A program made the position numbers and the translations under genes. The notes beneath the pieces were generated by a model. The model made no database searches. It was given only the letters and a program-made list of their open reading frames with translations, and was not told where the DNA came from. A DNA stretch of 64,000 bases from Nitrogeniibacter mangrovi (GTDB lineage: Bacteria > Pseudomonadota > Gammaproteobacteria > Burkholderiales > Rhodocyclaceae), in NCBI RefSeq assembly GCF_010983895.1, contig NZ_CP048836.1, forward strand, positions 2,480,001 through 2,544,000, in the 5' to 3' direction. Positions 54,929 to 59,684 of this stretch are shown piece by piece. Position 1 is the first letter of the stretch. Each line of letters starts with the position of its first letter.

Positions 54929-56668
54929 TCAGTCGACGCCGACCGTGCCCTCTCGGCGCGGATCGGCCGCACCCACCCAGTCCGGCCCGTCGCGCACGAT
55001 CACGTGCAGGCCGCTGGTGAGGTCCCGCAACGTCACCGCCTGCCCGAAAAGCGTCGCGAGCGACGTGGCCAGCTGTCGTCCGGCGGACGTGTCCTCCACC
55101 TCCGTCATCCGGTTGCGATTGCTCACATGCGGCATCGCGAGCACCTGATCCGGCGGGAGGTGCCAGTCGAGCAGACCCACCACGGTGGCCGCCACGTAGT
55201 TGATGATGTGGCTGCCACCGGGTGAGCCGAGCACCGCGTAGAGCTGGCCGCGGGCGTCGTACACCAGGGTCGGCGACATGGAGCTGCGTGGCTGGCGGCG
55301 CGAACCGGCCCGGTTCGGATGGGGACCCGACACCCCGCGTGGCGAGAAGGAAAAATCGGTGAGCTGATTGTTGAGGAGGAAACCGTCCACCAGCGTCCGG
55401 CTGCCGAAGGCGTTTTCGATCGAGGCGGTGAGCGCCACCGCATTGCCCGCATCGTCGACGATCGACAGGTGGGAGGTGGAGGGTCGCTCCGGCGAACGCG
55501 CCGGTACCGCCGCGACGCCCTCGGGCCGACCGGGCAGGACGGCTCCCGGATGCGCCCGGGTCGGATCGATGCGTGCCGCGCGCCGTTTCAGGTACGCCGG
55601 CGCGATCAGCGCGCGCGGCGACACGGCCATGGTGGCCGGATCCCCGTACCAGGCATCCCGGTCGGCGAAGGCGAGGCGCCCGGCCTCGGCGAACAGGTGC
55701 ATGGCGAAGGCCGAACCCGGCGCCAATGCCGGCAGGTCGAAGCGGGTCAGCAGCCCGAGGATCTCGAGCACCGTGCCACCGCCGGAACTCGGCGGTGGCA
55801 TGCCGCACACGGTGTACTGGCGATAGGGGCCGCACAGCACCGGGCGGCGCATGGCCCGGTAGTCGCGCAGATCCGCCAGGCTGAGCCGACCCGGATGGCG
55901 CACCGAGCGGACCCGCGCGACGATATCGCGCGCGATCGAGCCGGTATAGAAGGCGTCGGGCCCGTTCGCCGCGACCTTGCGCAACACCTCGGCGAGCGCC
56001 GGATTGCGCAGCCGCGTACCCACCGCGAGCGCCCGACCCTGCGCGTCATAGAACAGCGCCCGCGCCCCCGGGTCATCGGCCAGGAAGCGGTCGGCCGCCA
56101 GGAGGGCATGCAGGCGCGGCGACACCGCAAAACCGTCCTGCGCCAGCCGAATCGCCGGCGCCACCAGGCGCGCCCATGGCAGGCGGCCATGATCGCGGTG
56201 CGCCAGCGCCAGCATGCGCAGCAGGCCGGGCACGCCGACGGAGCGGCCGCCCACGACCGCATCGAAGAAGGCCATGGGCTTGCCGTCGGCATCGAGGAAG
56301 AGCGTGTCGTCGGCGGCGGCCGGTGCACGCTCGCGACCGTCGTAGGCGATGCGCCGACCACGACGGGCGTCGTGCACCAGCATGAAGCCGCCACCGCCGA
56401 TGCCCGAGGACTGCGGCTCGACGACATTGAGCACCAGGGCCGCAGCGACCGCCGCATCGGTGGCCGAACCACCCTCGCGCAATACCTGCAGCGCGGCGTC
56501 GGTGGCGTGGGGATTGGCGGTGACCGCCATGTGCCGATGCGCCCGTACGGCCGGTTTCGTGTCGACACCGGAGGCGGCCTCCGGCGTCGCCTGCTGGGCC
56601 CGGCCCGGCGGCGTGGCTGCCGCCAGCACCAGGGCGAAGCACAGTCCGATCCAGCGCCCTGCCGTCAT
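54929..56668 (-). CDS. ggt: Gamma-glutamyltransferase
   Basis: 579-residue periplasmic N-terminal-nucleophile hydrolase that cleaves glutathione and other gamma-glutamyl compounds. A signal peptide precedes QQATPEAA. The autoprocessing site is the threonine of PSTSHLSIVDDAGNAVAL. PQSSGIGGGGFMLVHD and GSPGGSHIINYV are family motifs. The ATG overlaps the phosphofructokinase stop (ATGA), so the two are translationally coupled. Confidence 0.92.
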   Translation of the reverse strand: MTAGRWIGLCFALVLAAATPPGRAQQATPEAASGVDTKPAVRAHRHMAVTANPHATDAALQVLREGGSATDAAVAAALVLNVVEPQSSGIGGGGFMLVHDARRGRRIAYDGRERAPAAADDTLFLDADGKPMAFFDAVVGGRSVGVPGLLRMLALAHRDHGRLPWARLVAPAIRLAQDGFAVSPRLHALLAADRFLADDPGARALFYDAQGRALAVGTRLRNPALAEVLRKVAANGPDAFYTGSIARDIVARVRSVRHPGRLSLADLRDYRAMRRPVLCGPYRQYTVCGMPPPSSGGGTVLEILGLLTRFDLPALAPGSAFAMHLFAEAGRLAFADRDAWYGDPATMAVSPRALIAPAYLKRRAARIDPTRAHPGAVLPGRPEGVAAVPARSPERPSTSHLSIVDDAGNAVALTASIENAFGSRTLVDGFLLNNQLTDFSFSPRGVSGPHPNRAGSRRQPRSSMSPTLVYDARGQLYAVLGSPGGSHIINYVAATVVGLLDWHLPPDQVLAMPHVSNRNRMTEVEDTSAGRQLATSLATLFGQAVTLRDLTSGLHVIVRDGPDWVGAADPRREGTVGVD

Positions 56669-57921
56669 GGCACGTACGGGCCCAGCCGGCGGGCCAGTGG
56701 CGGGCAATCGGGACACCGATAATCCGGCAGGCCGGCCACGTACGGGGGCGGCGCTTCGCCCTCGATCAGGGGACGCAGCCAGCGCAGGCCCGCCTCGCTC
56801 AGATCGAAACCGCAGTCGGACATGAACGCGGTGGGCACCCGGCGCTCGGCGTTGGCGATGCCGGCCAGATCGGCCGGCGCGACCTCCCAGCGGTAAGGCA
56901 CGTCGCTGCGCCGGACGATGGCCGGCATGACGCCGTCGCGCCCGGCCACCGCGTATTGGACCGCGGCCCAGCCCACCGCCTCGGCCTGGGCGAGGTCGGT
57001 GGCCGACACCAGATGGCCGGCCGCGCGTTGCAGGTAGTCCGGCACTGTCCAGTGGTGCTTGTAGCCGAAGGTGGTGTGCAGCAGGCGGGCGAGGTACTGG
57101 CCGATGCCGCCGAGCTGGACGTAGCCCTTGGCGTCCTCGTCCTGCTCGATCAACAAGCGGCCGTCCGGGGCGCGAATCCCTTCGGAGGCGGAGATCGCGC
57201 AGTAGCCGAGGCGCTGCACGCAGGCCTCGACCCGCGCCAGGAACGCCGCCTCGTCGAAGACGCGTTCGGGCAGGAGGATGAGGTGCGGCGGGTCGTCGGG
57301 CGCGCGCCGGGCCAGGGCGGTGGCGGCGGCCAGCCAGCCGCAGTTGCGCCCCATCACCTCCATCACGAAGACACGCCCGCGCCGGCTCGACATGGCCTGG
57401 ATGTCCAGCCCGGCTTCACGCATCGAGGTGGCCAGATACTTGGCCGCCGAACCGTAGCCCGGGGAACAGTCGGTGCCGACCAGGTCGTTGTCCACGGTCT
57501 TGGGGATGCCGACGCAGGTGAGCGGATAGCCGCGGGCCCGGGCGGCGCTCGAGAGCTTCATCACCGTGTCCATCGAGCCGTTGCCGCCGTTGTACAGGAA
57601 GTAGCCCACGTCGTGGGCCGCCAGCACCGCGATCAGGCGGTCGAACTGGGCGGGGTTCTGCTCGGGCGGGTCGAGGTCGAAACGGCAGGAGCCGAACGCG
57701 CCACCGGGCAGTTGCTTGAGTGCGCGACAGTCGGTCTCGTCGAGGACCGAACAGTCGAGCAGATCTTCGTCAAACACGCCGAGAATGCCGTGACGGGCGG
57801 CGATGACCCGATCCACCGCCTCGTCATGAGCCCGTGCCGCCGCGATCACCCCCGCGGCGGAGGCGTTGATCACGGCGGTCACGCCCCCCGACTGGGCGTA
57901 GAGCAGATTCCTGCGTTGCAT
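56665..57921 (-). CDS. 6-phosphofructokinase, PPi-type relative with mixed signature
   Basis: 418 residues, longer than the E. coli ATP enzyme (about 320). The phosphate-donor site reads NGGNGSMDT (111-119) and the substrate motif is PKTVDND (140-146). Lysine in PKT is typical of PPi-dependent enzymes, whose partner motif normally is GGND or GGGD with Asp where this protein has Gly115; glycine there is typical of ATP enzymes. Donor is therefore uncertain. ATG 57921; terminator of adk upstream; ggt coupled downstream. Confidence 0.85.
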   Translation of the reverse strand: MQRRNLLYAQSGGVTAVINASAAGVIAAARAHDEAVDRVIAARHGILGVFDEDLLDCSVLDETDCRALKQLPGGAFGSCRFDLDPPEQNPAQFDRLIAVLAAHDVGYFLYNGGNGSMDTVMKLSSAARARGYPLTCVGIPKTVDNDLVGTDCSPGYGSAAKYLATSMREAGLDIQAMSSRRGRVFVMEVMGRNCGWLAAATALARRAPDDPPHLILLPERVFDEAAFLARVEACVQRLGYCAISASEGIRAPDGRLLIEQDEDAKGYVQLGGIGQYLARLLHTTFGYKHHWTVPDYLQRAAGHLVSATDLAQAEAVGWAAVQYAVAGRDGVMPAIVRRSDVPYRWEVAPADLAGIANAERRVPTAFMSDCGFDLSEAGLRWLRPLIEGEAPPPYVAGLPDYRCPDCPPLARRLGPYVP

Positions 57922-57950
57922 CGGCGCCTCAATTCTCCGGGGCAAACAAA

Positions 57951-57991
57951 AACGCGACGGCATGCCGGCACGGGCCGGTCGCCGTCGCGTT
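57951..57991 (-). terminator. Terminator of adk
   Basis: An 11-bp stem (AACGCGACGGC / GCCGTCGCGTT) with an inner CCGGC/GCCGG pair is followed on the minus strand by TTTTGTTTG. It lies just after the adk stop at 58013 and before the phosphofructokinase gene. Confidence 0.88.
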
Positions 57992-58012: not shown

Positions 58013-58690
<678 letters not shown>

Positions 58691-58725: not shown

Positions 58726-59502
58726 TTACTCGGAAAGCCCTGACGGGTCAAACATCGCCCGGACGCGCGCCAGATCCTCCGGGGTATCGACCCCGGGTGC
58801 CGGCGCATGATCGACCTGCAGCACATGGATGCGCTCGCCGTGCCACATGGCCCGCAGCTGCTCCAGCGCCTCCCACTGTTCGATCGGTGCCGGGGTGAGC
58901 GACGCGTAGCGGCGCAGGAAGCCGGCACGATAGGCGTAGATGCCAATGTGGCGCCAGGCCGGCAGTGCGGCCGGCAGCGTTCCGCGATCGGCGGCAAAGG
59001 CGTCGCGCGCCCACGGCAGGGGCGCGCGCGAGAAATACATGGCACGACCGGCCGCGTCGGTGACCACCTTGACCACGTTGGGATTGAAGAAGTCCTCGGC
59101 CGAATCGATCGGATGCGCCGCGGTCGCAATGGCCGCTTCCGGATCGGCGGCCAGGGCCTCGGCCACGTGGCGCACCAGGGCCGGATCGATCAGCGGCTCG
59201 TCCCCCTGGACGTTCACCACGATGGCCTCGTCGGCCCAGCCCAGCGCATTGACCACCTCGGCCAGCCGGTCGGTGCCGGTAGGGTGGTCCTCGCGCGTCA
59301 TCAGTGCCTGCGCCCCCGACGTGCTCACGGCCTCGGCCACGTCGGCGTGATCGGTCGCCACCCAGGTTTGTTGCGCCCCGCAGTTCGCCAGGCGCTCGAG
59401 CACCCGCACGATCATCGGCTTGCCGGCGATATCGGCCAGCGGCTTGCCGGGCAGACGGCTCGAGGCATGCCGCGCGGGGACCACGACATGAAAGGCGGTC
59501 AC
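58726..59502 (-). CDS. kdsB: 3-deoxy-manno-octulosonate cytidylyltransferase
   Basis: 258-residue enzyme making CMP-Kdo for lipopolysaccharide. N-terminal [15 protein letters not shown] is the nucleotide-binding motif; [10 protein letters not shown] and [10 protein letters not shown] are also typical. The start is GTG at 59500-59502, its bases shared with the Trm112-like gene stop (GTGA). Together with the Trm112-like gene and lpxK it forms an lpxK-kdsB operon as in many proteobacteria. Confidence 0.95.
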
Positions 59503-59684
59503 GCGCCCTCGCCTTCGGTGGCGCCCAGTTCGCGCGCCTCGTCCTCCAGCATCACGGGGATGCCGTCGCGGATCGGATACGCCAGCCGGCACGGGCTGCA
59601 CACCAGTTCCTGCTCGGTCTTGCGGTAGTCCAGCGGCCCCTTGCAGATCGGGCAGACGAGAATTTCAAGCAGCTTGGCGTCCAT
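59499..59684 (-). CDS. Trm112-family small zinc-ribbon protein
   Basis: 61 residues: [20 protein letters not shown], then a second pair in [18 protein letters not shown]. Four cysteines likely bind one zinc. Homologues (YcaR-like) lie between lpxK and kdsB in many Gram-negatives; role not settled. The ATG at 59682-59684 overlaps the end of lpxK by 20 bp; the stop overlaps the kdsB GTG. Confidence 0.9.

Follow-up and report, generated by a model that had tools for sequence, protein, structure and literature searches.

A Nitrogeniibacter mangrovi phosphofructokinase of pyrophosphate-type stock that has probably switched its phosphoryl donor to a nucleotide

A phosphofructokinase (PFK) gene was examined in a 64,000-nucleotide stretch of the Nitrogeniibacter mangrovi genome (contig NZ_CP048836.1, positions 2,480,001 to 2,544,000), referred to below as the window. 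It is flanked upstream by the adenylate kinase gene adk and by a further gene that we take to be kdsB, and downstream by ggt, which encodes gamma-glutamyltransferase (Table 1). The PFK open reading frame (ORF) extends to an ATG at 57963 (56665–57963, minus strand; 432 aa), with the ATG at 57921 being the likelier start judging by the GAGG ahead of it. Residues are counted here from the longer ORF, and positions taken from the literature follow Escherichia coli PfkA; in alignment to that enzyme Gly129 corresponds to Gly104, and Lys155 to Gly124 of E. coli PfkA. A preliminary description of the locus, counting from the ATG at 57921, had numbered the same residues Gly115 and Lys141 and read them as a mixed signature of enzymes that use adenosine triphosphate (ATP) and inorganic pyrophosphate (PPi), with an unusual or dual donor as the possible consequence.

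Table 1. Genes and donor-site residues of the PFK locus (window coordinates).
Feature	Position	Strand	Remarks
Phosphofructokinase (PFK) gene	56665..57921	minus	418 aa; likelier start at ATG 57921, behind GAGG
Gly129, position 104	57577..57579	minus	Asp in PPi enzymes; alignment to E. coli PfkA
Lys155, position 124	57499..57501	minus	Lys in 222/222 rows
Thr133, position 108	57565..57567	minus	alignment to E. coli PfkA
Asp96	57676..57678	minus	two residues past the E. coli Arg72 equivalent; Lys in Asp104 enzymes
Lys279	57127..57129	minus	in insertion unaligned to E. coli PfkA; Phe throughout the Asp104 group
adk, adenylate kinase	58013..58666	minus	family match; upstream of PFK
kdsB-like gene	58726..59601	minus	upstream of adk; ORF as listed, start not fixed
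ggt, gamma-glutamyltransferase	54929..56668	minus	family matches; ATGA overlap with PFK stop

The window PFK scored 556.1 bits against the NCBIfam model PRK14072/NF010675 (diphosphate--fructose-6-phosphate 1-phosphotransferase; cut-off 273) and 168.9 bits against the Pfam PFK model; its score against the ATP-PFK model TIGR02482 was 63.4 bits, below the cut-off of 371.35. The nearest solved relatives by sequence were 3k2q (452 bits) and 3hno (437 bits), aligned over ∼400 residues. Their depositors label the two PPi-dependent, and each has Asp at position 104, in agreement with the preliminary description, which had also read the motifs NGGNGS (with Gly) and PKTVDND (with Lys) correctly. Set against published donor motifs, the window enzyme has Gly in place of the Asp104 of the PPi-PFK motif GG(D/E)D(S/T); it shares Gly104 with the ATP-PFK motif GGDGSxxG, with Thr and Asn standing for Gly108 and Asp103; and Thr also takes the place of Ile108 in the ADP-PFK-A motif GGDGSxxI, typical of enzymes using adenosine diphosphate (ADP). 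The Gly104/Lys124 combination is real, but it makes a less mixed signature than first appears, because Lys124, although expected of PPi-PFKs, also occurs in the ATP-dependent PFK of Trypanosoma brucei and is not diagnostic of the donor (PMC12203962). The motif NGGNGS was present in 7/7 close named loci, among them those of three Denitromonas species (Rhodocyclales, Zoogloeaceae in the NCBI taxonomy). Since 10/10 genomes of the genus have this Gly, an error of sequencing or reading frame was ruled out.

Relatives were compared in a joint alignment of 222 PRK14072 members, 113 of them from the family code and order of the host and 109 from the rest of the class. In the family sample, 183/199 genomes contained a match and 101 of the 183 were read, chosen first on match quality and then for coverage of genera; five further genomes of the genus and seven from other families of the order make up the 113 rows, which exclude translations shorter than 400 aa, duplicates under named records (L032–L038) and other PFK types. 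At class level, 109 of 153 other genomes with a match were read. Position 104 was Gly in 60 rows and Asp in 162, and Lys124 was present throughout, ruling out a one-off mutation. Of the Gly104 rows, 56 belong to the window's own family, where they span 21 genus codes, and the other four to genomes from elsewhere in the class (G373, G316, G378 and G280, all of other families). A Gly104 sequence pattern matched 59/60 known Gly104 rows and 0/162 Asp104 rows; across 398 genomes of the phylum it matched the window's own genome only, the number of those genomes with this PFK family not having been measured.

The Asp-to-Gly difference is accompanied by others. Three distant outgroup rows apart, 159 Asp104 rows were available for comparison (43–56% identity to the window PFK), and columns 96, 129 and 279 have no residue in common between these and the 60 Gly104 rows. 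Column 96 is Lys in 158/159 Asp104 rows and Asp (55), Leu (3), Met or Asn (one each) in the Gly104 rows. Column 279 is Phe in 159/159 Asp104 rows; the Gly104 rows carry K25 R12 Y6 G5 L4 A2, S, C, E and H once each and two gaps, so that 37/60 have Lys or Arg. Position 108 is Thr in 162/162 Asp104 rows and more variable in the Gly104 rows (T45 A7 L4 V3 I1), yet in none of the 60 is it Gly. Position 103, Asn in the window enzyme, is Asn in 57/60 Gly104 rows.

In the gene tree the Gly104 rows formed one side, a coherent group and not the isolated case that a single odd sequence might have been. A tree of 107 rows (55 Gly104 and 52 Asp104; outgroup and long rows dropped, Asp104 rows thinned to a third), built with the ten switched columns and columns 128–133 removed, required a single Asp104/Gly104 change, with SH-like approximate likelihood-ratio test (SH-aLRT) support of 77 for the split. 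When the outgroup was kept and only columns ∼128–133 were removed, the minimum was two changes, one of which separates the Gly104 rows from the three distant Asp104 outgroup rows. The broad distribution of Asp104 at class level (105/109 rows) suggests that the change ran from Asp to Gly, although the root of the tree is not settled.

The Gly104 enzymes appear to be under constraint as catalysts. Equivalents of R72, T125, D127, D129, M169-G170-R171, E222 and R252 were found in 60/60 Gly104 rows, including the three residues expected of any PFK-A (Asp127, Arg171 and Glu222), and the ratio of nonsynonymous to synonymous substitution (dN/dS) was 0.06–0.15 across 10 Gly104 gene pairs. A pseudogene was rejected on these two grounds. 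At the columns matching R243 and H249, both groups carry His and Tyr. The window PFK is the single PF00365 match of its genome, and a second PFK-A covering a PPi-dependent role was thus rejected as well. That the Gly104 protein is no longer a PFK, having moved to another sugar phosphate (e.g. sedoheptulose 7-phosphate) or begun to decay, would fit the long branches of several Gly104 rows and the variable equivalent of E. coli Arg162 (R46 K8 S6 of 60), and such relatives often do not live on sugars; given the invariant catalytic residues, the low dN/dS and the lack of another PF00365 protein, we regard it as very improbable.

Gene content was surveyed in 160 genomes: a first set from the family and order (40/56 Gly104 and 40/57 Asp104 rows, all at least 95% complete) and a second from the class (4/4 Gly104 and 76/105 Asp104 rows; 77/80 at least 95% complete, the lowest 85%). 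A gene for proton-pumping membrane pyrophosphatase (H+-PPase) lay within 3 kb of the PFK gene in 64/116 Asp104 genomes (in 6 of these on the other strand) vs 0/44 Gly104 genomes (Fisher p 1e-12, a value that ignores relatedness), and was present anywhere in the genome in 85/116 and 4/44, respectively. In the first set, 35/40 Asp104 genomes had H+-PPase, always directly downstream of PFK on the same strand, and it occurred in 4/40 Gly104 genomes, never adjoining PFK. At class level it lay within 3 kb in 29/76 Asp104 genomes (downstream and on the PFK strand in 23, on the other strand in 6) and 0/4 Gly104 genomes, and anywhere in 50/76 and 0/4. The N. mangrovi genome itself had no PF03030 (H+-PPase) match, and accordingly no PFK/H+-PPase gene pair. 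In three of the four Gly104 genomes with H+-PPase (G227, G067 and G104) the gene adjoins one for a soluble pyrophosphatase.

Class I fructose-1,6-bisphosphatase (FBPase) exceeded its cut-off in 44/44 Gly104 genomes vs 46/116 Asp104 genomes, the latter comprising 31/40 from the family and order and 15/76 from the class. The class II enzyme GlpX was found in 0/80 genomes (22 Gly104, and 58 Asp104 without class I FBPase), while control genomes were positive. These 58 Asp104 genomes have neither a class I nor a class II match, other FBPase classes not having been searched, and PPi-PFK may be their route from fructose 1,6-bisphosphate to fructose 6-phosphate; a 2025 review considers this role not settled for any organism. 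Of the four distant Gly104 genomes, three (loci L238, L239 and L240 in G373, G316 and G378) carry fbp next to PFK in divergent orientation, an arrangement that suggests a shared control region.

Context was also compared along a host tree built from Adk and KdsB at 54/57 loci, L026, L031 and L246 having been dropped for want of an adk nearby. Within 1.5 kb flanks, kdsB-adk lay upstream of PFK in 35/35 Gly104 and 16/18 Asp104 loci, and H+-PPase lay downstream in 16/18 Asp104 loci; adk was not found near PFK at the Gly104 locus L246 or at the two distant loci L129 and L134. Among the host-tree loci H+-PPase adjoins 16/16 Asp104 and 0/38 Gly104 PFK genes. Asp104 and H+-PPase coincide here without exception, and do so at all three independent switches on the tree; examples are G075, a Gly104 genome among Asp104 hosts, and G033, an Asp104 genome among Gly104 hosts. 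The Gly104 hosts do not form one clade (approximately unbiased test, AU p 0.0065), and some gene transfer or repeated change is therefore likely in the history of the group.

Taken together, these observations suggest that the window PFK is probably a working fructose-6-phosphate 1-kinase of PPi-type stock whose donor has been switched to a nucleotide; we put the probability that a nucleotide (ATP or ADP) is the physiological donor of the Gly104 PFKs at about 0.7. Asp104 is described as lying in the place of the ATP alpha-phosphate, with a role in holding PPi (PMC12203962). In that place it normally keeps PPi in register, and Gly at 104, together with the changed residues 96 and 279, would admit the nucleotide. 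The reaction so driven would be effectively one-way and its reversibility lost, FBPase would oppose it, and the adjoining membrane pyrophosphatase gene, which is absent, would be superfluous. For residue 279 the comparison is with the PFK of Borrelia, where ATP can be kept out by an insertion lying over the active site, its His384 being placed so that it would block the ribose (PMC12203962); that residue 279 acts in the same manner is something we infer by analogy. The Asp104 enzymes, judged by context, resemble the PPi-PFKs already described from PFK/H+-PPase gene pairs: Methylococcus and chemosynthetic symbionts are reported to encode PPi-PFK together with a proton-pumping pyrophosphatase and no FBPase (PMC4287430), and a sulphur oxidiser with PPi-PFK, in which no FBPase gene was found, had PPi-PFK activity and undetectable ATP-PFK activity (PMC4136832).

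Several observations weigh against a switched donor. Solved ATP PFKs have Gly at position 108, whereas the window enzyme has Thr and none of the 60 Gly104 rows has Gly; position 103 is Asn instead of Asp; and Lys124 is retained. The split in the 107-row tree has the support of 77 given above, and the root fell among the Gly104 rows when the three distant Asp104 rows served as outgroup, which may be a long-branch pull. There were only three independent switches (sign test p 0.25). Furthermore, 52/116 Asp104 genes lack an H+-PPase gene within 3 kb, four Gly104 genomes still hold H+-PPase away from PFK, and near Asp104 relatives often carry FBPase as well (31/40). Soluble pyrophosphatase was equally common in the two groups (39/40 vs 38/40), and was rejected as a discriminator.

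Some of these points bear on an enzyme that is still PPi-dependent, with Asn103, Lys124 and other groups holding PPi in register and the genome differences reflecting lineage habits. Lys124 in 60/60 and Asn103 in 57/60 Gly104 rows, the unchanged soluble pyrophosphatase and the small number of switches would all agree with it. Yet Lys96, almost invariant in the Asp104 enzymes, and Phe279, wholly invariant there, are missing along with Asp104, the H+-PPase neighbour is absent in 44/44 Gly104 genomes, and the same change at position 104 of the Entamoeba PFK moved its donor from PPi to ATP (PMC11609450). We feel that continued use of PPi is decidedly unlikely. The dual donor raised in the preliminary description has in its favour the co-occurrence of Gly104 with Lys124 and the report that the PPi-dependent Entamoeba enzyme gained ATP activity through a single point mutation, revealing a latent site (PMC12203962); Lys124, however, is not diagnostic, and the gene content of the Gly104 hosts resembles that of a one-way kinase with FBPase. 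The missing H+-PPase neighbour and the FBPase in every sampled Gly104 genome argue for a changed rather than a dual donor. The donor is probably not that of the family name, which is in the spirit of the preliminary description, but nothing points specifically to two donors, and a dual enzyme seems improbable.

Which nucleotide would be used is less clear. ATP appears more likely than ADP, and ATP alone has about an even chance of being the donor of the Gly104 PFKs; Thr108 and Asn103 are what keep it from being certain. Position 108 is reported to be Gly in ATP enzymes and Ile in ADP enzymes (PMC11609450). Within the nucleotide reading, an ADP donor would amount to an independent origin of the ADP-PFK-A type, with the alpha-phosphate accommodated at Gly104 and the ATP cleft shut by a bulky residue at 108. 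The residues at 108 (T, A, L, V or I, never Gly) would suit this, but Ile108 occurs in just 1/60 Gly104 rows, Thr108 is shared with 162/162 Asp104 rows and the Asp103 of the ADP motif is replaced by Asn, which leaves ADP unlikely. We also considered, as conceivable though doubtful, an old clade-wide conversion of PPi-PFK to an ADP-dependent (or other non-ATP, non-PPi) kinase, independent of the cyanobacterial ADP-PFKs and made with different residues (Gly104, Thr108, Asp96, no Phe279), in which the PFK/H+-PPase pair was lost. As a separate observation, at L123 (G026) and L124 (G010) an Asp104-motif PFK (GGNDS, Lys124) adjoins a second PFK on the opposite strand, whose GGDGSLTI and PKT correspond to the published ADP-type motif.

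The coupling of PFK to ggt, called odd in the preliminary description, is real at the junction: the PFK stop TGA (56667–56665) overlaps the ggt ATG (56668–56666) as ATGA. As a partner ggt is a variable neighbour, found downstream of PFK in 17/38 Gly104 vs 0/16 Asp104 host-tree loci. The ggt ORF as listed (54929–56716, minus strand) begins at a GTG at 56716 inside the PFK gene, and the ATG at 56668 opens an apparent signal peptide, judged by eye.

Phosphate-donor switching has long been a theme in discussions of PFK evolution. The ADP-PFK-A enzymes (GGDGSxxI) presumably belong, going by their motif, to another subfamily than the window enzyme, from which they differ in its Asn103, its Thr108 and its insertion absent from E. 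coli PfkA; those of cyanobacteria and alphaproteobacteria share with it Gly104 and a non-Gly residue 108, and are possibly of PPi-type origin (PMC11609450). A 2025 review finds strong evidence for donor switching in eukaryotic PFKs (PMC12203962), and the ATP-dependent PFKs of trypanosomatids are related to PPi-PFKs (PMC7383607). The T. brucei enzyme offers a parallel to the reading favoured here: it uses ATP, comes from PPi-type stock and retains Lys124 (PMC12203962, PMC7383607). It differs in belonging to another subfamily, in its 487 residues and at position 108, where the window enzyme has Thr and, from what the review says of solved ATP PFKs, the T. brucei enzyme has Gly. The Asp-to-Gly mutant of the Entamoeba histolytica PPi-PFK carries the identical single change at 104 (PMC11609450) but was made in the laboratory, whereas here the change is natural, found in 60 rows and accompanied by others. 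A bacterial ATP enzyme among PPi-type enzymes is also described in Streptomyces coelicolor, within the short PPi-PFK cluster (PMC11609450), although it belongs to another PFK group. With the PPi-PFKs of the PRK14072 type (3k2q, 3hno), the window enzyme shares the sequence family, Lys124, the key catalytic residues and, in most family and order loci seen, the kdsB-adk-pfk locus; it is set apart with its group by the loss of Asp104, Lys96 and Phe279 and by genomes without an H+-PPase neighbour (0/44) and with FBPase (44/44). No description of the Gly104 group was found in the literature searched, which lay largely outside subscription journals, and no publication on phosphofructokinase in Denitromonas was retrieved; nor was an assayed relative with these residues found, the residues of published enzymes not having been compared one by one. 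In Accumulibacter from wastewater, pfp is termed pyrophosphate-dependent (PMC12766714).

The window enzyme lies within the PRK14072 sequence family and should not be filed as a PPi-PFK, an ATP-PFK or an ADP-PFK until assayed. The NCBI model names it diphosphate-dependent in spite of the missing PPi anchor. Presumably this name is also carried by other Gly104 enzymes, and metabolic models relying on it may be wrong. Lastly, relatives that share one bacterial locus (kdsB-adk-pfk) and differ in Asp104 and in the H+-PPase neighbour allow donor, reversibility and the need for FBPase to be compared.
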